From the NCBI RefSeq assembly GCF_003046545.1, contig NZ_QAAA01000018.1, positions 1-44,161 on the forward strand: a DNA stretch of 44,161 nt, in the 5' to 3' direction. The notes under the pieces are model-generated. The model saw nothing but the letters and a program-made list of their open reading frames with translations. It was not told where the DNA came from and did no database searches. Source of the stretch: Rhodovulum imhoffii. Its GTDB lineage: Bacteria > Pseudomonadota > Alphaproteobacteria > Rhodobacterales > Rhodobacteraceae. The first letter of the stretch is position 1, and every line of letters starts with the position of its first letter. This document shows, in pieces, positions 3,223 through 25,143 of the stretch. The position numbers were made by a program, and so were the translations under genes.

Positions 3223-4344
3223 TCACACAGAAACCCAACTGCGGATTGCATGCGAGCTTTGCATCGCCTCAATGGTCCGCTGCACCTCGTAGGCTTCCCG
3301 GAAGTCCGGAAAACAGGCCGGCCCGCCTGCATGCGCCATCAGAAGCTGGGCCACCTCGATGACTTTCAGATCGTTAAAACCAAGATGGTGACCCGGCGCC
3401 GGGCAGAACTGCGCGTAGGGCGGATGAGAGGGGCCCGCTTCAATGCGAGTGAAACCGGGACCGTCCCCCGCCTGGACCAACAATTGGTTCATGTTCTCCT
3501 GGGTGAAGGCAATCGCACCTTTCGTGCCGGTCACCTCGAAGGACAAATCCATTGTGCGGCCGGTGGCCGCCCAGTTGGCCTCAAGGCTGCCCGACACCCC
3601 GTTTTCGAACCGGATCAGGGCATGGGTCATGTCATCGACCTCCACCGGCTTGCGAACACCGCTTCCGGGCGCGGCAGGACGGTTTTTGTGGATCGTCGTG
3701 CAATCGGCCTGCACCTCAGCGATCGGCCCCAACAGGTAGCGGGCCATCGACACGATATGGCTGCCGATATCCGCCAGCGCGCCGCCACCCTGCGGGTCCG
3801 TGCGGAAGGAATGCGGCGTATCGGGATTGATCATATAGTTCTCGGCGTGGCGTCCGCGAAACCCCGTGATCACACCGATATCGCCTGCGGCGATGAGTTC
3901 CCGGGCCAGACGTACCATGGGATTGCGCAGGAAATTGAAACCGACAGAGGTTACAACCCCTGCGGCCTCGGCCGCCTCGGTCATCTTGAGGGCTGAGGCG
4001 GCTGTCGTGGAAAGCGGCTTTTCGCAATATACCGTCTTGCCTGCGGCGATGGCTGCCATCGCAATGGGGTCATGCAGCACATTTGGCGCGGTGATCGCGA
4101 CAATGTCCACCGCGTCGTCAAAGACAAGATCGGACCAATCCTCCGTGGCCCGGGCAAAGCCCAGAGCGGCGGCACCGGCCTCCGCGGCCTGTCGGGTGGC
4201 ATCGGCCAGAATGGCCTTGATCGGCTGAACCGGCAGATCAAAGAGGCCCGAGACCGCCCCAAAGGCATTGGCGTGGCACCGGCCCATGAAGCCGGATCCA
4301 ACCAGACCGACCCCAACCCGTGGTTTTTCTGTTCTGTGTGTCAT
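3223..4344 (-). CDS. Gfo/Idh/MocA family NAD(P)-dependent dehydrogenase
   Basis: The 373-residue protein begins with a Rossmann nucleotide-binding loop (VGLVGSGFMGRCHANAFG, about residues 11-28). It carries the family signature YCEKPLS (about 107-113), whose Lys is catalytic, and then GGGALADIGSHIVSMARYLL, matching the C-terminal dehydrogenase half (Asp/His pair). Family members oxidise a hydroxyl of a sugar, inositol or related polyol with NAD(P). It is the last gene of the leftward ABC-1 operon, 6 nt after the ATPase gene, which suggests it acts on the imported substrate or its first product. Length is normal. The exact substrate cannot be read from sequence; myo-inositol-like or keto-sugar substrates are possible. 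Confidence 0.92.
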   Translation of the reverse strand: MTHRTEKPRVGVGLVGSGFMGRCHANAFGAVSGLFDLPVQPIKAILADATRQAAEAGAAALGFARATEDWSDLVFDDAVDIVAITAPNVLHDPIAMAAIAAGKTVYCEKPLSTTAASALKMTEAAEAAGVVTSVGFNFLRNPMVRLARELIAAGDIGVITGFRGRHAENYMINPDTPHSFRTDPQGGGALADIGSHIVSMARYLLGPIAEVQADCTTIHKNRPAAPGSGVRKPVEVDDMTHALIRFENGVSGSLEANWAATGRTMDLSFEVTGTKGAIAFTQENMNQLLVQAGDGPGFTRIEAGPSHPPYAQFCPAPGHHLGFNDLKVIEVAQLLMAHAGGPACFPDFREAYEVQRTIEAMQSSHAIRSWVSV

Positions 4345-4350: not shown

Positions 4351-5859
4351 TTACTCCGCCACCATTGGTCCACGATGATGGGAGACCGCGTCGATCAGAT
4401 TTTCCTCGGTCATCTGCGCGCCCCCGAACTCTGCCACCACGGCACCCTCGGACATGGCAAGAACCCGGTGGCTGACGCCCAGAACTTCCGGCATTTCCGA
4501 AGAGATCACGACCACCGCGAGCCCCTGTTCGGCCAGGTGCGCGATCAACTCGTGGATGGCTGATTTCGAGCCGACGTCGATCCCGCGTGTCGGCTCATCA
4601 AGGATGATCAGTTTGGGATCGGCGCAAAGCCATTTGGCCAATACGAATTTCTGCTGATTGCCGCCCGACAATTGCGACACCGCCTGATCGGGCCCCGTGG
4701 TCTTTATGGAAAGAGCAGAGCGGTATTTCTCGAAGGCCGCCAGTTCCTTCGATTTGTTCATGACCGAAAGCTCGGAAAACATGCTCAGATGCGGCAGGGA
4801 CGTATTTTCACGCCCCCCCATCATGAGAACCAGACCCTGTTCCTTGCGGCTTTCCGGGACCAGCGCCATGCCCATGTCTATGGATTGGCGCGGCGTCGGC
4901 AAGCCGATATCGCCCCCTTTCCAATAGACCTTTCCAGCATCCGCCCTGCGCACCCCGAAAACCGTTTCAACGACTTCGGAGCGCCCGGCACCGACGAGGC
5001 CGTAAAGACCCAGGACCTCGCCCTCGCGGACGGAAAAGGAAACCTCGCGGAACAGGCCCGTTTTGGTCAAATTCTCGACCCGCAATACCTCCGCGCCGAA
5101 TTCCGCCTTCGCCTTGACGAAATAGGCGTCCAGCGTCCGGCCGATCATCATGCGCGTGACATTGTTCAGGTCGGTATCGGCCGTATCGATCGTGCCCTGA
5201 ACCTGGCCATCGCGCAGCACCGTGATGCGGTCGGTGATATCAAAGATCTCGTCCATCTTGTGCGAAATGTAGACGATCCCGACCCCGCGCGCCTGAAGGC
5301 CCCGTATGGTGTGAAAAAGCTGCTCCTTTTCCGCGTCCGTCAGGGAGGCGGTCGGTTCGTCGAAGATCACGACATTTGCCCTGAACGCCTCGGCCCGGGC
5401 AATTTCGACCATCTGCTGCATCGCGACCGACAAGGTCCCCACGCGGACATCGGGACCGAAACCGCATCCAAGGGCCTCAAGTGCGGCTGAGGCATTCCTG
5501 CGCAATTCCTTCTTCCGGAGTACCCCGAAGCGGTTTGTCGGCCAGGCCCCGAGATAGATGTTCTCGGCCACGGAAAGCTCGGGTGACAGCGACAATTCCT
5601 GGTGGATCAGCAAGATCCCCTTTTGCCGTGCATCCAGCGGGTTCGACACGTTTGTCGGCTCCCCCAGATAGACGATCTCTCCACCGTCGGGCTGATGCAG
5701 CCCGGCGAGCACCTTCATGAGGGTCGATTTTCCGGCCCCGTTCTCTCCGACAAGCGCGTGGACCTCGCCCGGCCGAATATCAAAGCTGACATTGTCCAGC
5801 GCCTTGACGCCCGGGAATGTCTTGGTAATGCCGTCGACCTTGAGAATGACGTCTTGCAT
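4351..5859 (-). CDS. Sugar ABC transporter ATP-binding protein (CUT2 type), system 1
   Basis: The 502-residue protein has two fused ATPase halves, the pattern of RbsA/XylG/MglA proteins that energise ribose-class uptake. The first half has Walker A GENGAGKST (38-46), the signature variant LSVAMQQMVEIAR and Walker B VVIFDEPTAS. The second half has the usual degenerate P-loop GLVGAGRSEVVE, signature LSGGNQQKFVLAKW and Walker B LIILDEPTRGIDVG. Start 5859 was chosen over upstream codons because it overlaps the permease stop (TGATG) and begins the fold directly. It acts at the inner face of the membrane with the two permeases encoded just upstream in the same leftward operon. The sugar specificity is unknown. 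Confidence 0.95.
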   Translation of the reverse strand: MQDVILKVDGITKTFPGVKALDNVSFDIRPGEVHALVGENGAGKSTLMKVLAGLHQPDGGEIVYLGEPTNVSNPLDARQKGILLIHQELSLSPELSVAENIYLGAWPTNRFGVLRKKELRRNASAALEALGCGFGPDVRVGTLSVAMQQMVEIARAEAFRANVVIFDEPTASLTDAEKEQLFHTIRGLQARGVGIVYISHKMDEIFDITDRITVLRDGQVQGTIDTADTDLNNVTRMMIGRTLDAYFVKAKAEFGAEVLRVENLTKTGLFREVSFSVREGEVLGLYGLVGAGRSEVVETVFGVRRADAGKVYWKGGDIGLPTPRQSIDMGMALVPESRKEQGLVLMMGGRENTSLPHLSMFSELSVMNKSKELAAFEKYRSALSIKTTGPDQAVSQLSGGNQQKFVLAKWLCADPKLIILDEPTRGIDVGSKSAIHELIAHLAEQGLAVVVISSEMPEVLGVSHRVLAMSEGAVVAEFGGAQMTEENLIDAVSHHRGPMVAE

Positions 5860-6833
5860 CACGTAACCTTCCGATGGTTCAGAAGTTTGTCGAGAACAAG
5901 GGCAAGGACGAGAACAACCCCCATCACCATGAGTTCCACATAGTTCGGGGTATTCAGCAAACGCAGGCCGTTGCGCAGGACCGCCAGCGTCAGCACGCCC
6001 CCGACAGTCATCCACATGCTGCCAAACCCGCCCTGAAGCCGCGTGCCGCCCAGCACCACAGCGATGATCGTCCACAACTCCCATATCCGGCCTGCATTCG
6101 GCTCGGCGGTTCCCAGGCGCATCGACAGAAGGATACCGCAGACCGCGGCCAGCGTACCGCAGATGGTGAAGTTGACGATCTTATGCCGCTTCACGTTGAT
6201 CCCGGCGTCGTGGGCCGCTTCGATATTGTCGCCCACGGCATAGGTTTCGCGGCCATGACGGGTGCTCGACAGGATCCACTGGAAAAACAGGGCAAGGACG
6301 AAGAAGAGCATTGCCGTCAGGGAGATGGGCCCAAGATAGATTTCGGGGATTTCGGTGTAGGTGAAATCCTGCACCATGAGCGCGTTCTCACCTGTGTAGA
6401 CAAATACCAGACCGCGGATGCCGATCAACGCGCCAAGGGTCACAATAAAGGAATGCATGCCGGACAAGGCAACCAGCGTTCCGTTCACAAATCCCAGCGC
6501 AGTACCAGACAGAAGGCCCAGGATCACCGCAGGCCAGACGCCCACGACATCCTGCAATCCGATGGCCAGCGCCGACGCCAGGGCCAGGATCGCGCCGACA
6601 GACAGGTCGATTTCCCCGTCAATCATCACCATCGTCATTCCGATCGCAAGAATGCCGATGAACGCGCCCTGGGTCAGGATGTTGCCCAGGTTGTTGACAG
6701 TAAGGAAATAGGGGCTGGCAAAGGAAAACACCAACACGGTCAGCCCCAGAAACACCCAGATATGGTTTCTCAGGAGCCAGGACAAGGCTTTGCCAAGCGA
6801 TGCCGGGGGCAGGGTTTCGGTTGCGTGGCTCAT
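5859..6833 (-). CDS. Sugar ABC transporter permease (CUT2), system 1, second subunit
   Basis: A 324-residue integral membrane protein of the RbsC/BPD_transp_2 family, with about 8-10 hydrophobic segments. Family marks include the conserved block GMTMVMIDGEIDLSVGAILA (DGEIDLSVG corresponds to the usual GxIDLSVG) and the C-terminal VVLGGTRLQGGFGSMWMTVG. An N-terminal cytoplasmic stretch of about 20 residues precedes the first membrane helix. The start overlaps the stop of the preceding permease gene by 4 nt (ATGA) and its own stop overlaps the ATPase start, so the subunits are probably made in fixed ratio. It would form a heterodimeric channel with the product of 6830-7783. Confidence 0.94.
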   Translation of the reverse strand: MSHATETLPPASLGKALSWLLRNHIWVFLGLTVLVFSFASPYFLTVNNLGNILTQGAFIGILAIGMTMVMIDGEIDLSVGAILALASALAIGLQDVVGVWPAVILGLLSGTALGFVNGTLVALSGMHSFIVTLGALIGIRGLVFVYTGENALMVQDFTYTEIPEIYLGPISLTAMLFFVLALFFQWILSSTRHGRETYAVGDNIEAAHDAGINVKRHKIVNFTICGTLAAVCGILLSMRLGTAEPNAGRIWELWTIIAVVLGGTRLQGGFGSMWMTVGGVLTLAVLRNGLRLLNTPNYVELMVMGVVLVLALVLDKLLNHRKVT

Positions 6834-7783
6834 GCGAAGATCCTCCCGCGCTTGGCGCCCAGGTCAATCCAGACCGCGATGATGATGACAGCCCATGTCA
6901 CGAGCCATTGCACGTAGTAGGGGTACCCCAAAAGAAGCAGTCCATTCTGGATGAAGCCCAGCATTGAGATCCCGATCACCGTGCGCCAGATGCTGCCGGA
7001 GCCCCCCAGCAGCGATGTCCCGCCCAGAATCACCCCCGCGAGGACTGTCAACTCATAGCCTTGCCCGATAGTGTTCTGGGCCCCCATGACCCGGCTGCCC
7101 ATAATCACTGCCGCGATGGCGGTTGTCAGACCGGACACGACATACGTCCAAAAGACAGTCCAGGGCGCATTGATCCCCGAGAAGATGCTGGCCGTTTCGT
7201 TGCCGCCCACCGCGTATATGCGGCGCCCGAATGTCGTGAACGCAAGTACCAGCCCCGCGACAATCGCCCCTGACAGAAACAGCAGAACCGGAACCGGCAG
7301 TCCCAGAAAGCTGCCACGCCCGAACACGGCGAACCAGGTGTCCTGGGCATTTTGCACATTGACGTTCGAGCCCCCGGAATAGAACAGCACAAGCCCCTGC
7401 AAAAAGGACAACATCGCCAATGTGACGATCAGCGCGTTCAGCCCGACGAAACCGATGAGCAGGCCGTTGAACGCCCCTATCGCGGCGCCCGCAAGCAGCG
7501 TCATGACAATAGCGGGGAACGGCCCCGAGATATTGTGCTGATCCACCACGATGACGGTCAGCAAGGTCAGCAACGACCCGACGGACAGGTCCAGGCGCCC
7601 CGTCAGAACGACAAAGGTCACGCCCAGCGCCATCATCCCGGTGATGGAAACCTGCCGCAGCACGTCCAGAATGTTGCCAGGTGTCAGAAACGCCTCCGCA
7701 TTCACGGCAACGACCGCGAGAAACACCAGAAAAGCCAGCAGCAGCCCATGGCGTCGCAGCACATTCTTAATCAATTGGCCCAT
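6830..7783 (-). CDS. Sugar ABC transporter permease (CUT2), system 1, first subunit
   Basis: This 317-residue membrane protein is the first gene of the leftward ABC-1 operon. It shows the CUT2 permease pattern: GVTFVVLTGRLDLSVGSLLT near residue 60, FNGLLIGFVGLNALIVTLAM, and the C-terminal GVILGGTSLLGGSGSIWRTV followed by a final helix and a basic end. It starts 257 nt from the divergently transcribed binding-protein gene at 8041, and that gap must hold both promoters. The split arrangement (binding protein one way, permeases and ATPase the other) is a little unusual for CUT2 operons and allows separate dosing of the abundant binding protein. Confidence 0.94.
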   Translation of the reverse strand: MGQLIKNVLRRHGLLLAFLVFLAVVAVNAEAFLTPGNILDVLRQVSITGMMALGVTFVVLTGRLDLSVGSLLTLLTVIVVDQHNISGPFPAIVMTLLAGAAIGAFNGLLIGFVGLNALIVTLAMLSFLQGLVLFYSGGSNVNVQNAQDTWFAVFGRGSFLGLPVPVLLFLSGAIVAGLVLAFTTFGRRIYAVGGNETASIFSGINAPWTVFWTYVVSGLTTAIAAVIMGSRVMGAQNTIGQGYELTVLAGVILGGTSLLGGSGSIWRTVIGISMLGFIQNGLLLLGYPYYVQWLVTWAVIIIAVWIDLGAKRGRIFA

Positions 7784-8040
7784 TCAGAAACGTCCTCCCC
7801 CAATGACGATATGCGGGGAAAATGGCACACAAAACGCCGGTTATATCCGAAATGGATTTTATGCGTGGACCCCGGCCTTCTTGGCGCGCGGCCCTGTTTC
7901 TTCACCGCCAGGCAAAAAACCGATTTGGATATTTCAACGATTGAGCGCGGATGCGGTCTGCCGAAAATTGAAGTTAAGTCACCCGCAGCGCTGCCGACGG
8001 GGAGGACTGAGAAATACTGGCGGCATTTGGAGGAGAAACC
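7784..8040. promoter_or_regulatory. Divergent intergenic region between ABC-1 permease operon and binding-protein gene
   Basis: A 257-nt gene-free stretch separates two outward-facing operons and must contain both promoters. Visible elements are CGGTCTGCCGAAA at 7954-7966, near-identical to a site before the second binding-protein gene, and a pair of related boxes, ATATCCGAAATGG at 7843-7855 and CCGATTTGGATAT at 7920-7932, the second being an imperfect reverse complement of the first. GGAGGAG lies just before ATG 8041. Clear -35/-10 hexamers could not be assigned with confidence. Confidence 0.6.
7954..7966 (+). promoter_or_regulatory. Candidate operator CGGTCTGCCGAAA
   Basis: The 13-mer differs by one base from CGGTTTGCCGAAA at 25144-25156. 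Each copy stands upstream of a CUT2 binding-protein gene: 75 nt before ATG 8041 and 65 nt before ATG 25221, a difference of about one DNA turn. The core CGG-N4-CCG is an inverted repeat. A shared site bound by the paralogous winged-helix regulators of this island is an inference. Confidence 0.45.
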
Positions 8041-9033
8041 ATGACCAAATTGACCAAGGCAATTGCCATTGCGACATCTGTCATTGGGCTGGCGGCAGGC
8101 GCAGCGCCGGCCCAGGATGCCCCTGAATGGCTGGGGGGTGAGCTGAAGAAACCGCTGTCGGAAACCCGCATCGGCATTACCGTACTCTATCCGGGTTCGA
8201 ATGCCTACCAGGCGAAATATGCCGAGACTGCGGAAGCCTACAGCAAGGAGCTTGGCATTCAGGCCACCGTGATGGACCCTCAGGGCGACCCGGCCGTGCA
8301 ATTCAATCAGATTCAGGACATGGCTTCGCAGAAGCTGGATGCGCTGGTCGTCTGGCCGACGTCGCAGAACGCGCTGATTCCGGCAATTCGCAACGCCTCG
8401 CGCGATGGTATTCCGGTTGTTACGTCGAATTCGCCGATCGGTGAAGCGGGGCGGCGCTATATCGTCGGCCACACCGGGCCGGACGATTGCGCACAGGCCG
8501 AACAATCGGCGGAAATGCTGGGGGATGCGCTTGGCGGCGACGGCGATATTGTGGTTGTGGAGGGCACACCGGGCTATAGCGTCTCGATCCTGCGCAAGAA
8601 CTGTTTCCTCGACAAGATTGCCGACGATTATCCCGGCATCAACATTCTGGCCAGCCAGACCGCGGAATGGAACCGGGAAAAGGCTCAGACCGTGATGGAA
8701 ACCTTCCTGACCCAATTCGGCGACCAGATCGATGGCGTCTACGCGTTTGACGACGGAATGGGCCTTGGGGTGATCAGTGCGCTTCAGGGTGCCGGAAAGC
8801 AGCCCGGCGAAGTCAAGGTCGTAACATGCAACCAGTTTGGCGAAGGATGGGATGCAATGAAGGCCGGTTGGCATTCCGGCTCGAACAAACAGTCGCCCAT
8901 CGACGATGCGATCCTGGCCATCCAGACGGCGGTCAAGGTTGCCAACGGCATCGAGGTGCCGGCACTGCAGGGCATCGAGACGCCGAAGGTCACGCCGGAC
9001 AACGTGGATGAGTTCGACCGCCCGAGCTGGTAA
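8041..9033 (+). CDS. Periplasmic sugar-binding protein (Peripla_BP_4, CUT2), system 1
   Basis: The 330-residue product opens with a classical Sec signal peptide (MTKLTKAIAIATSVIGLAAG, then APAQD with a likely cut after APA). Mature residues form a type I periplasmic binding fold: RIGITVLYPGSNAYQAKYAE, VMDPQGDPAVQFNQIQDM, LDALVVWPTSQNALIPAIR, GIPVVTSN, and the hinge block AEWNREKAQTVMETFL. It captures the substrate for the system 1 permeases encoded divergently. The start is fixed by GGAGGAG 7-12 nt upstream. The substrate is likely a sugar or polyol, since the family includes ribose, xylose, rhamnose and erythritol binders. It resembles the system 2 binding protein, so the two systems probably arose by duplication or from related donors. 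Confidence 0.94.
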   Translation: MTKLTKAIAIATSVIGLAAGAAPAQDAPEWLGGELKKPLSETRIGITVLYPGSNAYQAKYAETAEAYSKELGIQATVMDPQGDPAVQFNQIQDMASQKLDALVVWPTSQNALIPAIRNASRDGIPVVTSNSPIGEAGRRYIVGHTGPDDCAQAEQSAEMLGDALGGDGDIVVVEGTPGYSVSILRKNCFLDKIADDYPGINILASQTAEWNREKAQTVMETFLTQFGDQIDGVYAFDDGMGLGVISALQGAGKQPGEVKVVTCNQFGEGWDAMKAGWHSGSNKQSPIDDAILAIQTAVKVANGIEVPALQGIETPKVTPDNVDEFDRPSW

Positions 9034-9053
9034 GCCAACGCCCCCAAGACATC

Positions 9054-9079
9054 GGGGCCGCGTTGAAAGACGCGGCCCC
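9054..9079. terminator. Hairpin between convergent genes
   Basis: GGGGCCGCGT (9054-9063) pairs perfectly with ACGCGGCCCC (9070-9079) around the loop TGAAAG. It lies 21 nt after the binding-protein stop (9033) and 15 nt before the stop of the convergent regulator gene (9094), so it can end transcription from both sides. No long T tract follows on the plus strand. Confidence 0.7.
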
Positions 9080-9093
9080 TCCGGGGAGGCGGC

Positions 9094-10797
9094 TCAATAG
9101 CGGCCACGTTCCCGCATCAGGGCGTCGATGCGGTTTTGGGCATTCGACAGGGCCTGTTCCACGGTCAGGACACCTTGTAGCATCATGTGGATTTCGACCC
9201 CAAGAACACTCAGAAGATCGCTGAATTCCGGGATCGGAGGACGCGGCCAGGTCTGCAACTCGCCGCGGCGCTCCATGGCATCGACCGCGCTGATCATGGC
9301 ACTGCTGGCCTGAACCTCCGGATCCGCGCTGGTGGAAAAGCGTGGGCTGGTCGGGTTGCCGTTCAGCACGTACCATTTCAGCATTTCCGGGCGCGTCAGG
9401 TATTCCATCACCTTCCAGGAGGCCGCCTTGCGCTGGGTTGAAAGCCCGGAAGGCATGGCCAGAGAGAAGCCGCCGATCGGGGAGACAGTGCGCGCGCCCG
9501 GCCCGTGCGGATGTGGCACAAACTGCACATTGCCATGTGCCGGGGAGGAATCGTTCAGTTCAAAGGCTGCCGCGCGAATGCTCCAGCCATATGTCATGGC
9601 CGCCTCGCCTTTCGAAAAAATGCTGATGCGACGATCCCAATTGCAACTCAGGCTGTCACGGTGCGAAAACGCCAACAGTTCCAACAAAAACTCGGCCGTC
9701 TCCCGGGCCACGTCCGTGTTCAGAAGGGGGCGGTAATTTTCCCCCCGAATCTCGTTCACGTTGAATTCAACTCCCAGCGGATCGAGGTTTATGACCGGCT
9801 GCCCGAAATCCGCCAGTGTCTGGACAAAAGTATGTGCGACCGGGGTTCCGCGGCCGAAATTCATAACGATCCCCGAAAGATTGAGGGTCGAACGATGTAG
9901 CACCCGGGCCGCCAGAAGCAGTTCGTCGGTCGTCCTTGGACTGGTCAATCCTGCTTCGGCGAAAAGGTCGGAACGACAAAACAAAAGCTCCGCAGTCGGC
10001 TGAATCGGCAAACCGTATTGGCAATTATTCCAGGAAGACCCCCGGTAGGCCGCGTTATGAAAATCTGAAGGGTTGTAACGCTCTTCGCTCATGATCTCGT
10101 TAAGCGGCTCAATCACGTTTTCGGTGGCGAGTTGGCCGATCCACGGCAGATCCACGGCCATGAGATCGTATTTCGAAATCTCCCGTTGGGCATTGTTCAT
10201 GATTTCGCCAAGGAGTTCATCGAGCGGCAAGTTGACGATTTCGATATTCGTTCCGCAAAGCTCATCCAGATTCGATGAAAACTCGCTGAGGGTCTTGAAC
10301 GTTGGATCGATCGGACTGAGAATCCGAAAGGTCTGCTCCACGCCGACGCCTGCGCGCATTGCGCTCGGGTAGGGCAATGTACGGGATGCCATGTAATAAC
10401 CGCCGAAGTAGAAATCGCTGATTTCGCCATCGCCGGTCGTGAAACCGAATGTATTTCCGACCGTTGATTTCAACTGCGTGGCAAAACTCTCGATCTCCGA
10501 AATCAGTTTGCGCGTCGGATGCAGCGAAAACGATTTCCCCGTCCGGGATTTGGGGCGTTTGTGCAGGAACCCTTCCTCGATCAGTTCCGAAATACGGCGC
10601 ATCGCCGTGCCGTAAGGGACATCCGCAGCCATCGCGGCGGATGTCACGGTCAAAAGCTTTCCTTCGAGATGCCGGCGCATGGCATAGGAGACGATATTCC
10701 AGCGCGGGTCCACCGTGGCCAGGCTGGTCCGCTTTTCGGACAATTCACGGTTGGAATCCACGAATGTCAGAATTCTTAAAAGCTCCTCTCGGGTCAT
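9094..10797 (-). CDS. Winged-helix regulator fused to a family-1 solute-binding domain (regulator 1)
   Basis: The 567-residue protein has no signal peptide. Residues of about 33-95 look like a winged helix: a first helix, then VTSAAMAADVPYGTAMRRIS (recognition helix) and a basic wing KRPKSRTGKSFSLHPTRKL. From about residue 150 to the end it resembles an extracellular solute-binding protein of the maltose class (SBP_bac_1/8): YDLMAVDLPWIGQ, then AELLFCRSDLFAEAGL, GEAAMTYGWS and a late SPIGGFSLAMPSG. Together they suggest a cytoplasmic one-component regulator whose ligand is bound by a transporter-type fold, in the way SgrR couples HTH and a different binding-protein family. It is convergent with the system 1 binding protein and divergent from the GMC gene, its probable target. 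A paralogue lies at 23182-25002. Confidence 0.85.
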   Translation of the reverse strand: MTREELLRILTFVDSNRELSEKRTSLATVDPRWNIVSYAMRRHLEGKLLTVTSAAMAADVPYGTAMRRISELIEEGFLHKRPKSRTGKSFSLHPTRKLISEIESFATQLKSTVGNTFGFTTGDGEISDFYFGGYYMASRTLPYPSAMRAGVGVEQTFRILSPIDPTFKTLSEFSSNLDELCGTNIEIVNLPLDELLGEIMNNAQREISKYDLMAVDLPWIGQLATENVIEPLNEIMSEERYNPSDFHNAAYRGSSWNNCQYGLPIQPTAELLFCRSDLFAEAGLTSPRTTDELLLAARVLHRSTLNLSGIVMNFGRGTPVAHTFVQTLADFGQPVINLDPLGVEFNVNEIRGENYRPLLNTDVARETAEFLLELLAFSHRDSLSCNWDRRISIFSKGEAAMTYGWSIRAAAFELNDSSPAHGNVQFVPHPHGPGARTVSPIGGFSLAMPSGLSTQRKAASWKVMEYLTRPEMLKWYVLNGNPTSPRFSTSADPEVQASSAMISAVDAMERRGELQTWPRPPIPEFSDLLSVLGVEIHMMLQGVLTVEQALSNAQNRIDALMRERGRY

Positions 10798-10955
10798 GGG
10801 CGGGTCCTGTCATTCGTTTCCATGCGCCCAGCCACGTTCCCAAATCCGGCGGGCTGAACCAGTCAAGGTTAGTCCAAATCTGACATTTTGCGTGTTCTGT
10901 CGCAACGGCTGGCCGTGCAACGCTTGCACCGGACCATTTTCAGGCGGGGGAAACG
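10798..10955. promoter_or_regulatory. Divergent promoter region between regulator 1 and the GMC oxidoreductase
   Basis: The 158-nt gap separates outward-facing genes. GTGCAA (10915-10920), three bases, then TTGCAC (10924-10929) form a perfect inverted repeat 27 nt before ATG 10956, a sensible place for an operator. TCCGGCGGGCTGAAC at 10845-10859 matches the CGGTYTGCCGAAA boxes only weakly. A purine-rich ribosome site (GGCGGGGGAAA) precedes the GMC start. Confidence 0.45.
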
Positions 10956-12557
10956 ATGTCGCCAACTGAATTCGACTACATCGTGATCGGCGCGGGCTCG
11001 GCCGGATGCGCGGTCGCGGGACGCCTGGGCGAAGCGGGGCATTCGGTGCTTTTGCTCGAAGCCGGCGGGCGCGACTACAATCCGTTCATCCACATCCCGT
11101 TGGGCTATTCGATGCTTTACGCCAACCCCCGCGTGAACTGGTGTTACGAGAGCGCCCCCGAACCGTATTTGAACAATCGCCGCCTGTTCCAGCCGCGCGG
11201 CAAGGTGCTTGGGGGCACGGGTGCGATAAACGGAATGATCTACATGCGCGGCCAACCGGAAGATTTCGATGGATGGGCGGCCGGTGGATGTACCGGCTGG
11301 GGCTGGGACGGCGTCCTGCCGTATTTCAAATCCTGCGAAGATCAGGAGCGCGGCGCAGATGAATATCATGGTGCGGGCGGTCCTGTTGCGGTCTCCGATA
11401 TTCGCACCCGACACGAATTGGGAGAGGCCTTTCACGCGGCTTCCGAGGCGCTGGGCGTACCACGCAACGACGATTTCAACGGCGCGCAACAAGAGGGCAC
11501 GGGCTATGTCCAGACAACGACCAGGAATGGCCTCAGATGGAGCACCGCCGCCGGCTATCTGCGCGGCACGGCCAGGCAGAATATCACCCTGAAACTGGGC
11601 GCGATGGTCCAGCGCATCACGCTTGACGGGCGGCGTGCCACCGGCGTGTTGTGGCGGGACAAGCGTGGTAAACATACGGCAAATGCACGGCGCGAGATCA
11701 TCCTGAGCGGCGGCAGCTTCAATTCACCGCAATTGCTTCAGCTTTCGGGCATTGGGCCTGGCGAATTGCTGCGTTCCTTCGGGATCGGTGTGCAACACGA
11801 TTTGCCCGGAGTGGGTGAAAACCTGCAAGACCATTTCGGCATCGGGGCGGAATACCGCTCGACCGTGCGTTCCACGGTCAACGATCTTTACAACAACAAG
11901 CTCAAAGGCGGGCTGCAACTGTTGCGACATCTGGTTTCCCGGACCGGTCCCTTTGCGGACAATGGCAACTACTCCAATACCTTCATCAGGTCGGACCCTG
12001 GGATCGACCGACCGGATATGATGGTAACCTTCATGGCGTGGTGCACGGACGAGCACCTGAAGCCGCATCCTTTCTCGGGCTTCACCATTCTGGCTGAGCA
12101 TATGCGCCCCAATTCCCGCGGTCATGTGCGTATCACCAGCCCAGATCCGGATCGGCAACCCGAGATCCAATTCAACTTCTTCGCCGACGACGCCGATCAG
12201 CATGCGGCAATCGCAGGCCTGCGGTTCGCGCGCAAGATCGCAGCTACATCTCCCATGGCAGAATGCGTTGAATATGAGCTTTCGCCTGGCAAGGACGTGC
12301 AATCCGAGGATGAGCTTCTGAGCTATTGCCGGGCGAACGGCTTGTCGCTGCTGCATCCGGTCGGGACCTGCAAGATGGGGATTGGCGTGGATGCGGTGGT
12401 CGACCCACGGCTCAGGGTACATGGGATTGATGGGCTGCGGGTTGCGGATGCCTCGATCATGCCGCGGATCGTGACAGCCAATACCAACGCGGCCTCGATC
12501 ATGATTGGCGAAAAGGCGGCCGCGTTGATATTGGAAGATGCAAGGACATTCGCATGA
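10956..12557 (+). CDS. GMC family FAD-dependent oxidoreductase (choline dehydrogenase-like)
   Basis: The 533-residue flavoprotein begins with the FAD-binding Rossmann loop (YIVIGAGSAGCAVAGRL, LLLEAGG, about residues 8-40), followed by GMC signature 1 (RGKVLGGTGAINGMIYMRG, about 84-102) and signature 2 (SGGSFNSPQLLQLSGIGP, about 252-269). The active-site His lies in LLHPVGTCKMG and the partner Asn in NTNAASIMIGEKAA near the C-terminus. It has no signal peptide. Family members oxidise primary or secondary alcohols of polyols, choline or sugars and pass electrons to quinone or oxygen. It forms a two-gene operon with the Gfo/Idh enzyme (ATGA overlap), so both probably work on consecutive steps of one sugar alcohol. 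The substrate is unknown. Confidence 0.93.
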   Translation: MSPTEFDYIVIGAGSAGCAVAGRLGEAGHSVLLLEAGGRDYNPFIHIPLGYSMLYANPRVNWCYESAPEPYLNNRRLFQPRGKVLGGTGAINGMIYMRGQPEDFDGWAAGGCTGWGWDGVLPYFKSCEDQERGADEYHGAGGPVAVSDIRTRHELGEAFHAASEALGVPRNDDFNGAQQEGTGYVQTTTRNGLRWSTAAGYLRGTARQNITLKLGAMVQRITLDGRRATGVLWRDKRGKHTANARREIILSGGSFNSPQLLQLSGIGPGELLRSFGIGVQHDLPGVGENLQDHFGIGAEYRSTVRSTVNDLYNNKLKGGLQLLRHLVSRTGPFADNGNYSNTFIRSDPGIDRPDMMVTFMAWCTDEHLKPHPFSGFTILAEHMRPNSRGHVRITSPDPDRQPEIQFNFFADDADQHAAIAGLRFARKIAATSPMAECVEYELSPGKDVQSEDELLSYCRANGLSLLHPVGTCKMGIGVDAVVDPRLRVHGIDGLRVADASIMPRIVTANTNAASIMIGEKAAALILEDARTFA

Positions 12558-13564
12558 TGGGTACCATTGGGATAGCGGTGTTGGGCACGGGGCGCATGGC
12601 GCATGTCTACGGGCCCAAGATCAACGCGCATCCGGGGCTGCGCCTTGAAGTTGTTTACAACCCGCGCATGTCGTCCGCCGAAAACGCGGCCGCGCGCTAT
12701 GGCGGACGCGCGATGGACGACCTGGGTGCCGTCCTGGGCGACCCTCGGGTCGATGCGGTGGTGATCGCAACGCCGACCAACACGCATCTTGAGTATATCG
12801 ACAAGGCGGCCCGTGCCGGAAAACCGATTTATTGCGAGAAACCGCTGGATCACTCTCTGGAGAGGGTGGAGCAGGCCCTGACGACGCTCAAAACACACCC
12901 GGTTCCGTTCATGCTGGGCTTCAACCGCCGTTTTGACCCCGATAACCTTGCCTTGCGCAATGCCGTGCAGACCGGCGAGATCGGTCGCTTGACCATGGTG
13001 ATGAGCTGGTCGCGGGAGCCGAGCCCGCCGCCGATCGGCTATGTGCGTGCATCCGGCGGCTATTTCGTGGATGCGACCATTCATGACATCGACCTGTTAT
13101 GCTGGATCGCAGGGGAACACCCAGTCGAAGTGCAGGCTGCGGGGTCGTGCATGTTCGACCCTGAGATCGGCGCCCAGGGCGATTTCGATCTGACCATGAC
13201 AACGCTGAAAATGCCCTCGGGCGCGCTTGCGCACATCAACAATTCCCGTGCCTGTTCCTACGGGTTCGACCAGCGCCTGGAAGCCTTCGGAGACAAGGGC
13301 ATGGTACAGACCCTGAATCACAGGGATGACAACCTGGTGCGCTGGAACGATCGTTGCACTGTCGCCCGCGCGCCGCTCAGGCACTTCTTTCTGGAGCGCT
13401 ATGACCAGTCATTCTACAACGCGCTGGACGAGTTCCACGCCGCACTCACGTCCGGCCGGGCCCCATCCGCCACCGCGCAGGATGGGCAGGCCGCGTTGGC
13501 CATTGCCCTGGCCTGTGCGAAATCAGCGAAAACCGGGCAGGCAGTGACGCCAGATTACACATGA
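12554..13564 (+). CDS. Gfo/Idh/MocA family dehydrogenase (inositol 2-dehydrogenase-like)
   Basis: The 336-residue protein overlaps the GMC stop by 4 nt. It has GIAVLGTGRMAHVYGPKI at the start (Rossmann loop), VIATPTNTHLEYIDKAARAG, the catalytic block IYCEKPLDHSLERVEQAL (about 94-111) and VDATIHDIDLLCWIAGEHPV (about 174-193), the last being close to bacterial inositol 2-dehydrogenases. Its length is typical of IolG. Together with the GMC enzyme it suggests oxidation of a cyclic or open polyol. No other inositol genes (iolB, C, D, E) are present, so the inositol label describes family resemblance only. It ends 28 nt from the convergent SDR gene. Confidence 0.9.
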   Translation: MMGTIGIAVLGTGRMAHVYGPKINAHPGLRLEVVYNPRMSSAENAAARYGGRAMDDLGAVLGDPRVDAVVIATPTNTHLEYIDKAARAGKPIYCEKPLDHSLERVEQALTTLKTHPVPFMLGFNRRFDPDNLALRNAVQTGEIGRLTMVMSWSREPSPPPIGYVRASGGYFVDATIHDIDLLCWIAGEHPVEVQAAGSCMFDPEIGAQGDFDLTMTTLKMPSGALAHINNSRACSYGFDQRLEAFGDKGMVQTLNHRDDNLVRWNDRCTVARAPLRHFFLERYDQSFYNALDEFHAALTSGRAPSATAQDGQAALAIALACAKSAKTGQAVTPDYT

Positions 13565-13592: not shown

Positions 13593-14360
13593 TCAGCGGG
13601 CCAGCCAACCGCCGTCGACAGGCAGGATCGTCCCGTGAATGAACGCGGCGTGCTCGCTGGCCAGAAATGCGACCGGCCAGGCAATCTCTTCGGGCGTTCC
13701 CCAGCGGCCGGCCGGAATACGGGCCATCAGGTCGCGGGTCCGGTCTGCGTCCTTTTGCAAAGCGGCGGTGTTGTCGGTTGCGATATACCCCGGCGCCACG
13801 GCGTTGACGTTCACGCCCCGTGCCGCCCATTCATTGGCAAAGGCACGGGTCAGCTGCGCGACCGCGCCCTTGGCGGCCGCATAGCCCGGCACCAGAATGC
13901 CCCCCTGGAAGGACAGCACGGACGCGACATTGACAATCTTGCCATGTCCCCTGTCCAGCATGCGGCGCCCAAGTTCACGGGTCAGCAGGAAAACCGCATC
14001 CAGATTGACGGCCATGACCGCATCCCAGTCTTCAATGGGATGCTGCGCAGCCATTGAACGGCGGATGATCCCGGCATTGTTGATCAGGATATCGACGGGA
14101 CGCCCCGCGGCATCCAGCCCGGCGATCATGGCTTCGATCCGGCCCCGGTCCGAAAGGTCGCAATCGACCGGTTCGAATGTACCGGACAGCCCCTCGAACT
14201 GATCGGTGGGAGCATGCTTCGTGATCCGGGTGCCGACGCCAATCACATCGGCCCCGCATTGCGCGATGATGTGGGCAATGCTCAGCCCGATGCCCCGGCT
14301 GGCCCCGGTCACCAGGGCCGTCTTGCCCCGCAGGTCGATTTTGGGATGCGCATGGGTCAT
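13593..14360 (-). CDS. SDR family oxidoreductase (2-deoxy-D-gluconate 3-dehydrogenase-like)
   Basis: The 255-residue classical short-chain dehydrogenase has the cofactor loop TGASRGIG (about 17-24), NNAG, and the Ser-Tyr-Lys set in NVASVLSFQGGILVPGYAAA plus KGAV. The C-terminal ATDNTAALQKDADRTRDLMA and RIPAGRWGTPEEIAWPVAFL resemble KduD, which interconverts keto-deoxy sugar acids. Start 14360 overlaps the stop of the preceding E3-like gene by 4 nt (ATGA), so it is the last gene of the long leftward operon. An upstream extension to 14486 is ignored because it would run into that gene. Acting on a keto or hydroxy intermediate of the imported sugar is an inference. Confidence 0.9.
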   Translation of the reverse strand: MTHAHPKIDLRGKTALVTGASRGIGLSIAHIIAQCGADVIGVGTRITKHAPTDQFEGLSGTFEPVDCDLSDRGRIEAMIAGLDAAGRPVDILINNAGIIRRSMAAQHPIEDWDAVMAVNLDAVFLLTRELGRRMLDRGHGKIVNVASVLSFQGGILVPGYAAAKGAVAQLTRAFANEWAARGVNVNAVAPGYIATDNTAALQKDADRTRDLMARIPAGRWGTPEEIAWPVAFLASEHAAFIHGTILPVDGGWLAR

Positions 14361-15307
14361 AGGCCCGTGAGAGTCCCAAGCGCCCTTTCGGCGGCAAAGC
14401 CAACCGTTTCGGACAGTATCGGATCGGCATGAATGCTCCGTGCGATATCCCCAGATGTTACCCTCATTTCCATAGGCAGAACACATTCACCCAGGAGTTC
14501 CCCGGCAGTGCGCCCGACCGCCCGGATGGCCGCGCCGGCCTTGATTTCCCCGACAAAATCTTCTTCGTATCTCAGCAAAAGCGCCGGGCCGCCGGCATTC
14601 ACAGAAACGACCTTCGTGCCCGTGTGCACGGTGAGGCCGGCGGCGCCCAGCGCCGCGCGCAAGATGCGAACCACCTCGGCATCGGCGCCGGGGGCAATCT
14701 GATCCACGCACTCGATCACGGTGACCTTGCTTCCCAGAGCGGTATAGACGGTTGCCAATTCCAGCCCGACGATACCGCCGACGACGATAGCCAGCCGCTT
14801 TGGGACATCGCGAAGTTCCAGCGCATCGGTCAAATCCCAGACCCGGTGGTCCCTGGACCACCCTTCCAGTTTTACAGGGAACGATCCGACAGCGATCACG
14901 GCCTGCTTGAATGTCCATCCCTTGCCGTCGATGTCAACAGACGCCGCCCCGGTGAACGATGCGGGGCCGCGTATGACGCGGACCTTGCGCCGTTGGGCCA
15001 AACCGTTCGGGCCGCCGGTCAGACAGGCAACGATTTCGTCCTTCTTGCCACGCAGCCTGACAAGATCGCCCGGCACCCGTCCCGTCGACATCCCCCAATC
15101 GTTGTCGTGGCGCGCCTCGTGGAGGAGTTCCGCGACATGCAGCACCGCCCTGGAAAGAATGCCCCCCTCGTTCAGGCTGGCTCCGCCCAAGGTCGCGCGC
15201 GGATCGGCCGGAACGACATCCCGCCCTAGGTCGGCGGCACGCAAAGCGCAGGCATGGCCCTCCGGACCCCCGCCAACAACCATGAAATCGGCGTGTGTAT
15301 CGGGCAT
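14357..15307 (-). CDS. Degenerate, internally deleted dihydrolipoyl dehydrogenase (E3-like pseudoenzyme)
   Basis: The 316 residues clearly derive from an E3 (normally about 460-470). The FAD loop VVGGGPEGHACALRAADLG is present. The redox-disulfide motif GGxCLNxGC is GGASLNEGG (41-49), so both cysteines are gone. The NAD loop is VVGGIVGLE, one residue short of the usual GGGxxG. After AAIRAVGRT (about 267) the chain jumps to AGELLGECVLPMEMRV, removing about 145-150 residues that hold the FAD GD motif and most of the dimer domain. The final helix reads IHADPILSE where active enzymes have HxHPT, so the catalytic His is Asp (295). The frame is nevertheless open and coupled to both neighbours (9-nt gap upstream, ATGA downstream). 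It cannot catalyse the E3 reaction and is either decaying or repurposed. Confidence 0.88.
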   Translation of the reverse strand: MPDTHADFMVVGGGPEGHACALRAADLGRDVVPADPRATLGGASLNEGGILSRAVLHVAELLHEARHDNDWGMSTGRVPGDLVRLRGKKDEIVACLTGGPNGLAQRRKVRVIRGPASFTGAASVDIDGKGWTFKQAVIAVGSFPVKLEGWSRDHRVWDLTDALELRDVPKRLAIVVGGIVGLELATVYTALGSKVTVIECVDQIAPGADAEVVRILRAALGAAGLTVHTGTKVVSVNAGGPALLLRYEEDFVGEIKAGAAIRAVGRTAGELLGECVLPMEMRVTSGDIARSIHADPILSETVGFAAERALGTLTGL

Positions 15308-15316
15308 GCCTTCCCC

Positions 15317-16210
15317 TCAGACCATGATCCGGCGGGGGTCCGCAATCAACCCCGCCAAACAGGACATGAAGCGCGCGGCATCTGCGCCGTTGATCGCGCG
15401 GTGGTCATAGCTCAGGTCCAGTGGCACCATCGGAACCGGGCAGGGCGTGTCGCCGTCCCAGGTTGTGACGGTTTTGGTGCGAGTTATACCGAGGATCGCC
15501 ACCTCGGGCGGATTGACGATGGGCGTGAAACCGATGCCGCCGATACCACCCAAATTGGTGATTGTCATCGATGCGCCACCCATTTCATCCGGGCCAACCT
15601 TGCGGGACTGCGCGCGCGCGGCAAGATCGGCGATCTCCTCCGCAATCTGCCAGAGCCCCTTCTTGTCAACGTTCCGCACCACCGGCACCATCAGGCCATG
15701 TGCCGTGTCCACCGCAATGCCAAGATGAACATAGTCCTTCAGGATCAATCGCTTGCCATCTCCGGAAAGTGAGGCATTGAAACGGGGGAATTTCCGCAAC
15801 GCCCGCCCCAGGGCCTTGGCGTGGAAAGCCAGCGCGGTCAATTTGACACCGCGCGCCCGAGCCTCCGGTTTCAGTTTCGCGCGAAACGCCTCAATGGCCG
15901 ACATATCGGCGCGGTCATGGTGTGTGACTTGCGGGATCAACGCATTGGCCGCCGCGAGATTGGCGCTGGCGAGCTGGGCAAATCGGCTCATGGGTTCTTC
16001 TCTGACCGGACCATAAGCGGCGTGATCGACCTCCCAGTATGAGATGCCCGCCGCCGCACCGCCGGGGGCGGGCCTGCCACGGTCCAGATCCTCGTGCGCG
16101 ATTGTGGTGCGGCCCAGTTCACGGGCAAGCTGCTCCAGGTCGATCCCCTTGCGCAGGGCCAGAGCCCGGACGGACGGGGCGGCGATCACATGGCCCATAC
16201 CGCTCACCAT
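15317..16210 (-). CDS. Dihydrolipoamide acyltransferase catalytic subunit (E2) without lipoyl domain
   Basis: The 297-residue protein starts with a peripheral-subunit-binding domain (AAPSVRALALRKGIDLEQLA, about 10-43) and continues into a complete 2-oxoacid dehydrogenase acyltransferase domain: SRFAQLASANLAAANALIPQ, VTHHDRADM, LGIAVDTAHGLMVPVVRNVD, and the active-site block SYDHRAINGADAARF with His270 and Asn274 (Asn here is also known in pyruvate-type E2s). The usual N-terminal lipoyl domain is absent; lipoyl domains are instead in the product of 17646-18917. The start overlaps the end of the aldehyde dehydrogenase gene by 7 nt. It would transfer the acyl group from the lipoyl arm of its partner to CoA within the core of the complex. 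Confidence 0.9.
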   Translation of the reverse strand: MVSGMGHVIAAPSVRALALRKGIDLEQLARELGRTTIAHEDLDRGRPAPGGAAAGISYWEVDHAAYGPVREEPMSRFAQLASANLAAANALIPQVTHHDRADMSAIEAFRAKLKPEARARGVKLTALAFHAKALGRALRKFPRFNASLSGDGKRLILKDYVHLGIAVDTAHGLMVPVVRNVDKKGLWQIAEEIADLAARAQSRKVGPDEMGGASMTITNLGGIGGIGFTPIVNPPEVAILGITRTKTVTTWDGDTPCPVPMVPLDLSYDHRAINGADAARFMSCLAGLIADPRRIMV

Positions 16211-17628: not shown

Positions 17629-17645
17629 GTCGGTCTTCCTCAGGG

Positions 17646-19902: not shown

Positions 19903-19912
19903 GTTGTTCTCC

Positions 19913-20926: not shown

Positions 20927-20947
20927 GAACGATTTCCTTTGAAAGGA

Positions 20948-20967: not shown

Positions 20968-20980
20968 AGTCTCAGGGAGG

Positions 20981-22279: not shown

Positions 22280-22345
22280 GGGTATCTCCTTTCGGGTGCA
22301 ACGGCGTACACCCGTGTATTGAGGCAGGGTATGTTGGCCGGACGG

Positions 22346-23155: not shown

Positions 23156-23181
23156 GGGTTTTCCTCCTCCTATGGGTTTCA

Positions 23182-25002
23182 TCAGGTCGGTCGCATCAAC
23201 GCATCGGCCCGGGCCTGGGCGCGGACCAAAGCCTCGCGCGGCGCGATGATACCGCGCAGCATGTCGTGGAATTCCTCACCGCAGATCCGGATGATGTCGC
23301 TGATCTCGGGGACCGGAGGGCGTGGCCAGAACTGAAGCTCGTCGCGCCAGGACATCGTGTCCACGGCCTCGAAAATCGGAGAGGCCCGACGCACTTCCGG
23401 GTCGGAGCCGACCGAATAGCGCGGGTTTGTTCGGCTGCCATTCTGGACATAGAGCTTCTGGGCTTCGGGCGAGGTGAAGATCAACAGCGCCTCGACCGCT
23501 GCGGGCACCCTCTCTGCCGGCAGATTTGCGGGAATGCCCATCACATAACCGCCGACAGGTGCCACAGGGGCGACTCCGGGAACCGCCGGATGCGGCAGAT
23601 ACCCGGTCTGCCCGAATGCGGGGGAGGAGTCGTCCAGTTCGAAATACGGCGCCAGCAGGGTATAACCATACGCCATGGCAACATTTCCTGCGGCATAGGG
23701 CCGGATCCGTTCATACCAGGACATGGACAGGATATCCGGAGGAGAGTGTTTCAGGAGTTCCATGAGAAACCGGGCAGCGCGTTCCCCCCGCTCGGTATCG
23801 ATCGTAGGCCGGTAGTCCTTTTGGGAGAGGTGATCGGTTTCGAAACCGCCTGCAATTTCGGGCAGGTTCAGGACCGGTTGACCGAAATCGGCCATGGTCA
23901 GCAGAACCGTGTGCCCCAAGGCCGTCCCGCGCGCCGCATTCCATGCCACGCCATAGCGGCCCCGTTGCGGCGCATGGAGAACCGAGGCGGCGTGCAGAAG
24001 TTGCTCTGTCGTCGACGGAGGTTCCAGCCCCACCTGGGCGAACAGATCGCGACGGTAGAACAAAAGCTCAGGCGTTGTCTGGGCCGGCACCCCATAGGGA
24101 CGCCCCCCCCAATGCGCCGCCTTCCATCCCGCCGTGTGGAAATCCGCCGGATCGAGCCGCGCGATGTCCATGATCTCGTCCAGAGGCATGAGGATGCCTT
24201 TTTCGGCGTATTCCCCGACCCATGGCAAATCCAGTGCAATGATATCGTAGCGGCTGACCTTGCGGTCGGCATTGCGCTTACCCTCTTCGCGCAGGCGGTC
24301 GATGGAAAAGGCGCGCTGGTGAATCTGAGTGCCGATCGCCTGTTCGAACTGGCGTTTGAGGTTTTCCATGACCATGAAGGTTGGATCGCCATGGACCAGC
24401 ACGCGAATCCCGCCCGGCACTTTCAGCGGTTCGGGCACCAGCTTGAGCGGCGGAATCGACCGCGCGGACATGTACGACCCGCCAAAATAGTAATCCCTGC
24501 TGCCCGCAGCGCGCTTGCGACCGCCAAAATACCTTTCGGCCAGCCGTTCGACCCGCGTGGACATTTGCGCCCATTGCCAAAGAAGTTCTTCGCTGGGGTG
24601 CAGGGAAAAGCTCTTGCCGCTTTTCGTGCGCGGGCGTTGTTCGATCAGCCCGGCCTCGATCATCTCCCTCAGCCGGCGGTTGGCCGTGGCATAGGGAACC
24701 TGGCTGGCCCCGATCAGCGATGTCGGCGTAACAACCCTCGCCTCCAGATGGCCCCGGATCAGATGCAGCGTCATGCGCAGATGGGGATTGCCCGTCAATA
24801 CTTCGAGCGTGCTTTCGACCTCTCCGCCCAATTCTTCGAGAAAGGACACGATGCGAAGCATTTCCGATTTCGCGCGCGGCGAAACCAGGTGGCTTTCGTT
24901 ATGACCTCTCAGCGCATTCATGGGATGTGCTGGCATCCTGTGATTTGGCGACGAATTCGGGATCGTCGATTTCTTCATTTTGGACGAATCGGATTTCGGC
25001 AT
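23182..25002 (-). CDS. Winged-helix regulator fused to a family-1 solute-binding domain (regulator 2)
   Basis: The 606-residue paralogue of regulator 1 has the same order of parts. After a polar 40-residue N-terminal tail comes a winged helix (about 74-136) with recognition helix VPYATANRRLREMIEAGLIE and wing RPRTKSGKSFSLHPS, then a linker with DYYFGGSYMSARSIP, then a maltose-class solute-binding fold (YDIIALDLPWVGEYAEKGIL, LLFYRRDLFAQVGLEPPSTT, VAMAYGYTLLAP, PVGGYVMGIPANL). There is no signal peptide, so it should act in the cytoplasm on DNA. Start 25002 is preferred for its GGGGAG site 7 nt upstream. It heads the catabolic operon and is divergent from ABC system 2; both are its likely targets. 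Activator or repressor cannot be decided. Confidence 0.85.
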   Translation of the reverse strand: MPKSDSSKMKKSTIPNSSPNHRMPAHPMNALRGHNESHLVSPRAKSEMLRIVSFLEELGGEVESTLEVLTGNPHLRMTLHLIRGHLEARVVTPTSLIGASQVPYATANRRLREMIEAGLIEQRPRTKSGKSFSLHPSEELLWQWAQMSTRVERLAERYFGGRKRAAGSRDYYFGGSYMSARSIPPLKLVPEPLKVPGGIRVLVHGDPTFMVMENLKRQFEQAIGTQIHQRAFSIDRLREEGKRNADRKVSRYDIIALDLPWVGEYAEKGILMPLDEIMDIARLDPADFHTAGWKAAHWGGRPYGVPAQTTPELLFYRRDLFAQVGLEPPSTTEQLLHAASVLHAPQRGRYGVAWNAARGTALGHTVLLTMADFGQPVLNLPEIAGGFETDHLSQKDYRPTIDTERGERAARFLMELLKHSPPDILSMSWYERIRPYAAGNVAMAYGYTLLAPYFELDDSSPAFGQTGYLPHPAVPGVAPVAPVGGYVMGIPANLPAERVPAAVEALLIFTSPEAQKLYVQNGSRTNPRYSVGSDPEVRRASPIFEAVDTMSWRDELQFWPRPPVPEISDIIRICGEEFHDMLRGIIAPREALVRAQARADALMRPT

Positions 25003-25057
25003 TGCGTCCGCTCCCCGCAAACTGATCAAAACGGCCCAATAAGCGTAGTCTGAAAAG

Positions 25058-25091
25058 ATCCATATTGAACATCTCGACATCCAATATGGAT
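25058..25091. repeat. Perfect 10-bp inverted repeat, candidate operator
   Basis: ATCCATATTG at 25058-25067 is the exact reverse complement of CAATATGGAT at 25082-25091. The 14-nt spacer puts the arm centres 24 bp apart. The AT-rich arms stand out in GC-rich surroundings and lie where a promoter for the regulator 2 operon is expected. Confidence 0.6.
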
Positions 25092-25143
25092 AACTTTGGT
25101 GCATTCCTGAAAGCCCGTTATCGGCAGGTTTGCTGAAGTCATT

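Follow-up and report, generated by a model that had tools for sequence, protein, structure and literature searches.

Why should a protein that carries a complete maltose-type solute-binding domain begin with a DNA-binding fold, and which genes might it control? This question is raised by REG1 (P0001), encoded in the 44,161-nucleotide stretch of Rhodovulum imhoffii DNA analysed here (the window). A preceding sequence-only reading had proposed a one-component regulator with a winged helix at about residues 33-95, a family-1 solute-binding domain and no signal peptide. The domain searches and structure predictions it had suggested gave the same two-domain layout, with neither a signal or anchor nor any other fold in place of the winged helix. 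The coding region had also been delimited as an open frame, but its orientation had gone unstated: the plus-strand frame at 9094-10797 is interrupted by stops, and the REG1 frame runs on the minus strand from 10797 to 9094 (Table 1).

Table 1. Positions of the features discussed (window coordinates, except for the receptor in locus L180)
Feature	Position	Strand	Basis
Gfo/Idh/MocA dehydrogenase GfoA	3223..4344	-	best NCBIfam match levoglucosan dehydrogenase, below cut-off (290.8 vs 650 bits)
CUT2 ATPase, two ABC stretches	4351..6084	-	neighbour scan
CUT2 permease	5859..6833	-	neighbour scan
CUT2 permease	6830..7783	-	neighbour scan
Candidate operator 2, between the divergent permease and receptor genes, differing from the 18-base pattern by 3 mismatches	7914..7931	+	genome-wide search, conservation
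CUT2 periplasmic receptor (Peripla_BP_4), signal-like N-terminus	8041..9033	+	domain match, hydropathy
wHTH-SBP regulator REG1, 567 aa	9094..10797	-	open frame, Pfam, full-length AF2 model
Family-1 solute-binding (MalE-like) sensor, REG1 residues 155-563	9109..10335	-	Pfam, Foldseek 5iai, profile search
Long helix, REG1 residues 96-117, probable dimer helix	10447..10512	-	AF2 model
Winged helix-turn-helix, REG1 residues 31-94	10516..10707	-	AF2, Foldseek, MarR_2/HTH_IclR in relatives
Candidate operator 1, REG1/GMC divergent promoter, AAATGTCAGATTTGGACTAA	10869..10888	-	conservation, genome-wide search
GMC oxidoreductase, divergent from REG1	10956..12557	+	domain match
Gfo/Idh/MocA dehydrogenase GfoB	12554..13564	+	passes inositol 2-dehydrogenase cut-off TIGR04380 (360.7 vs 355 bits)
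Paralogue REG2, 40% identical to REG1 over its length	23182..25104	-	search with full-length REG1
Weaker REG2-type site with 2 mismatches, at a 21-bp distance from the stronger one	25056..25072	.	palindrome search
REG2-type site, ACATCCAATATGGATAA, 1 mismatch	25077..25093	.	palindrome search
Free receptor L180, signal-like N-terminus	L180:6743-8092	minus	sister of fused sensors in tree

REG1 opens with a MarR/IclR-like winged helix, which is followed by a long helix, a linker modelled with low confidence and a complete family-1 (MalE-like) solute-binding domain. In the AlphaFold2 model of residues 1-119, the winged helix had a mean pLDDT of 91.4 and bore out the residue range given earlier; it consisted of helices 31-45, 51-57 and 62-74 (the last being the second helix of the HTH) and wing strands 78-82 and 90-94, and was flanked by helices 3-23 and 96-117. 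The first 14 Foldseek matches of this domain were MarR-family structures (E 1.3e-4 to 6e-4), followed by the plasmid centromere-binding protein 4rs8 (rmsd 2.2 Å over 85 columns); among the 50 matches listed, the rmsd was mostly 6-10 Å. At the sequence level, residues 49-81 matched HTH_IclR weakly (0.034; 14.3 bits vs. a cut-off of 22), and a winged-helix profile found no match at E<=1 among the sequences of solved structures. When Pfam was applied to 15 diverse members of the family (E<=1), SBP_bac_1 was matched in all of them, MarR_2 in 10/15 (best 2.9e-4) and HTH_IclR in 6/15 (best 2.2e-7).

The assignment of the C-terminal part to the maltose-type, family-1 receptors was confirmed by both sequence and fold. 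SBP_bac_1 matched residues 208-471 at 8.7e-23 (82.2 bits vs. a cut-off of 26), and SBP_bac_8 matched residues 183-500 at 2.4e-15, above its curated cut-off. The solved structures closest to REG1 were transporter receptors, 5iai and 1eu8, with 4rya, whose entry name says sorbitol, lower down. For 5iai, Foldseek gave an E-value of 9.9e-26 and a TM-score of 0.89 by target length with the full-length model, and a profile search of solved structures gave 2.7e-59. The full-length model is of modest confidence (pLDDT 76.8, pTM 0.67), and residues 120-148 between the domains are poorly modelled.

The N-terminus of REG1 does not look like that of an exported protein. No signal or anchor was found in residues 1-150, where the highest 15-residue Kyte-Doolittle mean, 1.1, falls within the winged helix, and a membrane-anchored regulator was rejected on this hydropathy scan. 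For ordinary receptors, the first 60 residues gave 1.58-2.1 in 4/5 cases; the fifth, at 0.65, is perhaps called from too late a start. P0002 peaks at 1.23, inside an over-long start. A peak of 2.07 was seen in one of the 15 members, L045, at residues 31-45; in the alignment these correspond to a helix of the winged-helix domain, not to the N-terminus. REG1 thus has the PF01547 match and the fold of a family-1 solute-binding protein, and shows neither the export signal nor, among the neighbours scanned, the CUT1 permease partners of one.

The genes around REG1 stand in the order GfoA, ATPase and two permeases on the minus strand, receptor on the plus strand, REG1 on the minus strand, and GMC and GfoB on the plus strand. 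The true start of the ATPase gene is probably internal, since the long frame overlaps a permease gene. The GMC enzyme is nearest to choline-dehydrogenase-type and other alcohol oxidoreductases, and lies below the choline dehydrogenase cut-offs. A 367-residue minus-strand frame at 7771-8874 was rejected as a transporter receptor: it matched nothing in Pfam and is the shadow of the receptor gene on the opposite strand. Among the scanned neighbouring proteins of REG1 and REG2, no CUT1 permease was identified. The CUT2 transporters beside both regulators have receptors of the Peripla_BP_4 class, so that the sensor indeed differs in fold class from the receptors of its transport partners, as had been proposed.

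The paralogue REG2 lies in the same window. The genome holds 13 SBP_bac_1 matches, and those that the full-length query found as fusions are REG1 and REG2. Because the putative operators of REG2 lie inside its longest frame, translation probably begins at 25002 or lower. The REG2 cluster (13593-25104) contains E1/E2/E3-type parts of a 2-oxoacid dehydrogenase, an aldehyde dehydrogenase, SDR enzymes and an M24-family protein that is weakly DddP-like. Near REG2-type regulators, the M24 gene was found in 23/24 places and the E1 alpha gene in 20/24. Past the second CUT2 operon, a phage-integrase-type recombinase and a LacI-family regulator are encoded at 31147-32073 and 32284-33354.

The divergent promoter between REG1 and GMC (10798-10955) had been named as the likely DNA target, and a conserved, genome-wide nearly unique palindrome, which may serve as the operator, was found there. 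Orthologous loci at 67-87% identity numbered 35 in the genome-contig search, mostly in Rhodobacteraceae and kin, with Cribrihabitans marinus and Boseongicola aestuarii among the carriers, and 32 of the loci reach upstream of GMC. The 20-base consensus AAATRTCAGATTTGGAYAAA was present within 3 mismatches in 31/32 (the site was aligned for 29 loci and the window), and the 32nd, L024, carries TGTCCATTTTGGACC, which is the family-type form. In three loci (L012, L019, L038) GMC does not adjoin REG1, and the site stands upstream of GMC. In the loci that have the orthologous CUT2 transporter, a related site precedes the first permease: 24/24 have it with at most 6 of 20 mismatches and 21/24 with at most 5 (vs. 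0.6% of letter-shuffled regions), mostly with the core TCAGATTTGGA. Closer to the permease, the alignment of 18 of these 24 loci with the window contains a second conserved TTGGA stretch.

Throughout the 2.91-Mb genome, the 18-base pattern occurred within 3 mismatches at two places only, 10871-10888 (1 mismatch) and 7914-7931 (3 mismatches); the reversed pattern gave 0 matches. With 3 mismatches allowed, the window likewise contained no match to the pattern of operator 1 other than this site itself. A shorter, 14-base pattern was no commoner there than expected by chance (7 vs. 6.71 at up to 3 mismatches). A promoter scan of 7700-11000 found no sigma-70-like promoter.

Across the family, the site takes the form TRTCCA-N3-TGGAYA, with the fuller palindrome WTRTCCANNNTGGAYAW in relatives; REG1's own site has 3 mismatches to it. 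We counted this palindrome upstream of 51 regulators, in regions of at most 400 bp oriented by tblastn, and estimated the expectation from dinucleotide shuffles. It was present with at most 1 mismatch in 25/51 regions vs. 0.02 expected, with at most 2 in 40/51 vs. 0.71 and with at most 3 in 46/51 vs. 5.9; in the 51 downstream control regions it was found in one at 1 mismatch and in seven at 3. Tandem sites exactly 21 bp apart occurred in 28/51 regions (shuffles 0.0), and any other distance from 5 to 59 in at most 3. The consensus had been framed after part of the same set had been viewed, so that the count is not blind; the size of the excess and the 21-bp spacing are nevertheless hard to explain by this. 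A chance motif was rejected on the genome-wide, orthologue, family and control-region counts together. In the distant plasmid members L043-L047 the best sites have 4-5 mismatches, and in L048 the best has 3. A search of the Rhodovulum imhoffii genome for the REG2-type palindrome, with 1 mismatch allowed, gave seven places, and only one of them is the REG2 promoter.

The fusion is found well beyond this genome. Among plasmids, 84 records match REG1, and 34 of them, covering at least 80% of the query, belong to Roseobacter-group bacteria, Rhizobiaceae, Aminobacter, Skermanella and Paraburkholderia. With a profile built from 15 members (E<=1e-60; scoring covered the three or four best candidates of each genome, which may make copy numbers too low), 52/295 genomes of the same GTDB family matched, our own included. 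This becomes 50 without the plain receptors of G410 and G312, which match only from residue 149-151 on; the member in G420 is cut at a contig end. The class and phylum samples, which overlap with other samples, gave 7/289 genomes (G065 has a plain receptor and G030 a gene with an internal stop) and 6/398 genomes (of these, G701 belongs to another class). When the winged helix by itself served as the profile, 36/198 genomes gave 49 strong matches between them, and two more gave weak, apparently unrelated ones. As 48 of the 49 are full-length fusions (the 49th, in G446, is 77 bases away from where its contig stops), this winged helix was not seen with other sensors in the 198-genome sample. Two REG1 orthologues, L024:10001-11701 and L034:1823-3523, contain one in-frame stop each and are either pseudogenes or sequence errors.

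REG1 matches no NCBIfam model at 0.01, and no model names a wHTH-SBP family; the commonest match in the 15 members is the receptor model MalE (5/15). A search of the open-licence literature by titles and the starts of abstracts, which says nothing on print at large, found no description of such a family.

Neighbours were counted at 96 regulator places, four of which (in L147 and L148) repeat L026 and L033; the counts stand without control genes alongside. A CUT2 permease was found within 8 kb in 38/38 REG1-type places, 24/24 REG2-type places and 26/34 places of other members. CUT1 permeases were near 3/34 of the others and 1/38 of the REG1 type, and 6/34 of the others had neither type nearby. 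In L130 (G030) and L131 (G259), from two 1.4-Mb genomes of another family of the class, the regulator has CUT2, M24 and E1 alpha neighbours, and the upstream regions hold ATATTCAAATTGAATAT-like palindromes. On two rhizobial plasmids and one Aminobacter plasmid (L044, L045, L047), genes annotated as maleylacetate reductase and intradiol dioxygenase lie nearby, which suggests that the regulator there serves catabolism through an aromatic compound. Seven loci (L021, L023, L025, L026, L029, L030, L033) carry an additional family member, with 43-46% identity to its best query, which is oriented the other way and closes the REG1 cluster at its far end, so that one gene set is enclosed by two regulators.

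In eleven loci (L014-L018, L020, L025, L029, L031, L032, L036), the orthologous CUT2 transporter is swapped for a distant one (about 35-37% identity), and REG1 stays with the GMC and Gfo enzymes where the contig reaches and they were detected. REG1 thus appears to travel with the enzymes rather than the transporter, which points to a compound of the pathway as the signal. Our best guess for the ligand is a cyclitol or related polyol, because GfoB passes the inositol 2-dehydrogenase cut-off and 4rya is named for sorbitol.

A tree of the sensor domains was built for 47 fused members from the 96 places (all distinct other members, seven of the REG1 type and eight of the REG2 type) together with 14 plain receptors. 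Seven long-branch rows, the fused L048 among them, were left out of the careful tree of 54 rows, in which the 46 fused sensors all fall into a single clade (99/93) with the free receptor of L180 as its sister (100/100 for fused sensors plus L180); in the quick tree of all 61 rows the fused clade has a support of 89 and is not starred. The L180 receptor, 40% identical to the REG1 sensor, is encoded beside an ATPase-like gene and two CUT1 permeases, and a GMC enzyme lies at a distance of about 4.7 kb. A search with it in 292 genomes (E<=1e-60) returned only frames of 571 residues or more, apparently fused members; free receptors of this kind therefore look rare. The tree favours L180 as the nearest living relative of the captured receptor rather than as a regulator turned back into a receptor.

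Taken together, these data point to REG1 as a cytoplasmic, ligand-responsive one-component regulator of its own cluster, acting through the putative palindromes, sensing an imported cyclitol/polyol or an early product of it, and inducing the importer and the enzymes; we give this reading a probability of about 0.8. The domain layout, the family, the conservation and genome-wide uniqueness of the sites and the single clade can be seen in the sequences themselves, and REG1 probably controls nearby genes for the uptake and oxidation of an inositol-like or related polyol compound. In this reading, the winged helix would bind, as a dimer, the imperfect palindrome TRTCAG-ATT-TGGAYA in the REG1/GMC and permease/receptor promoters, and two dimers may occupy one face of the DNA where sites are 21 bp apart. 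The MalE-type domain, which appears to descend from a CUT1 transporter receptor, would sense the imported compound or an early product inside the cell, and the closing of its two lobes may shift how the winged helices sit on the DNA. In the presence of substrate, the CUT2 importer, the GMC oxidoreductase and the inositol-dehydrogenase-type enzymes would then be induced.

Several other explanations have to be weighed against this one. Public annotation has such proteins as ordinary transporter receptors, in which case the N-terminal extension would be spurious: among the 34 well-covered plasmid records, 26 are labelled extracellular solute-binding protein, 1 periplasmic component and 1 hypothetical, 6 have no label and 0 is called a regulator. 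However, the N-terminal 120 residues are conserved as protein, are modelled as a winged helix and carry no signal, no CUT1 permease is among the scanned neighbours, and conserved palindromes go with the genes, which makes this explanation highly improbable. It is also unlikely that the sensor has given up ligand binding and now serves as a protein-interaction or dimerisation module, as at least 93% of the 47 fused sensors retain D164, D211, R486, R519 and several glycines that ordinary receptors also have; W219 is retained to the same extent, although the sister receptor L180 has Q at this position.

The sign of the control is less certain. The same regulator might be a repressor released by its ligand, according to a LacI-like logic, and we regard this as a possible, though less probable, mode of action. 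The divergent promoters that carry the candidate sites include that of the regulator itself, as described in PMC4052901 for AglR and ThuR, local sugar regulators of the LacI family that each control the regulator gene and one divergent operon; the tandem sites of the REG2 set also seem, in our reading, close to the regulator's own promoter. On the other hand, the conserved permease-promoter sites, as we read the alignment, seem to precede the weak promoter-like elements instead of overlapping them, and for this reason we lean slightly towards activation by REG1.

As to the history of the family, we consider it more likely than not that this is an undescribed regulator family of single origin, in which a MarR/IclR-like winged helix captured an entire CUT1 receptor and then spread as a local regulator of CUT2 importers and several catabolic sets in Alphaproteobacteria and beyond. 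Its members would bind TRTCCA-N3-TGGAYA, often in tandem two helical turns apart, and lobe closing would register as a change in a tetramer on the DNA, while the L180 sister still serves a CUT1 transporter. A whole regulator family seems hidden in public records under the name of extracellular solute-binding protein, and the candidate operator makes its regulons and ligands predictable from genome sequence. The family also offers intracellular sensors on the MalE receptor scaffold, and with the sister receptor, the evolutionary path by which a transport component became a gene switch can be tested.

Among known regulators, SgrR combines a winged helix with a large transporter-receptor-like sensor of the SBP_bac_5 kind. 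The likeness to SgrR put forward in the sequence-only reading holds as an analogy but not as kinship: SgrR_N (PF12793) is absent from REG1 at E<=10 and gave one match, at 0.16, in the 15 members, and SBP_bac_1 and SBP_bac_8 are matched instead of SBP_bac_5, so that membership of REG1 in the SgrR family was rejected. LysR-family proteins, often divergent from their target, join a winged HTH (HTH_1) to an effector domain with a type II receptor-like fold (LysR_substrate); REG1 has no LysR Pfam domain, and the LysR effector domain is much shorter. In Firmicutes, proteins with a GntR HTH and an SBP_bac_1 domain would embody the same idea with another HTH, and Pfam found no GntR match in REG1 or the 15 members. 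The fold closest to the DNA-binding domain is that of MarR/IclR, HTH_IclR being matched at up to 2.2e-7 in a relative, and no match to the IclR effector domain was found by Pfam in REG1 or the 15 members. MarR proteins carry their winged helix between dimerisation helices; that of REG1 also has a helix on either side, but with the mostly large rmsd values given above. The CUT1 receptors 5iai, 1eu8 and 4rya share the fold and sequence of the REG1 sensor and are themselves without a DNA-binding domain. The LacI/GalR proteins are alike in being cytoplasmic, in combining an HTH with a sensor homologous to periplasmic ABC receptors and in governing local sugar regulons, according to PMC4052901. They are unlike REG1 in that their sensor is of the Peripla_BP kind and their HTH is not winged, and REG1 has no LacI or Peripla_BP Pfam match. 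The earlier reading overstated the rarity of receptor folds in regulators, as such folds are already known from LacI, LysR and SgrR; what is unusual here is the full-length MalE-type domain.
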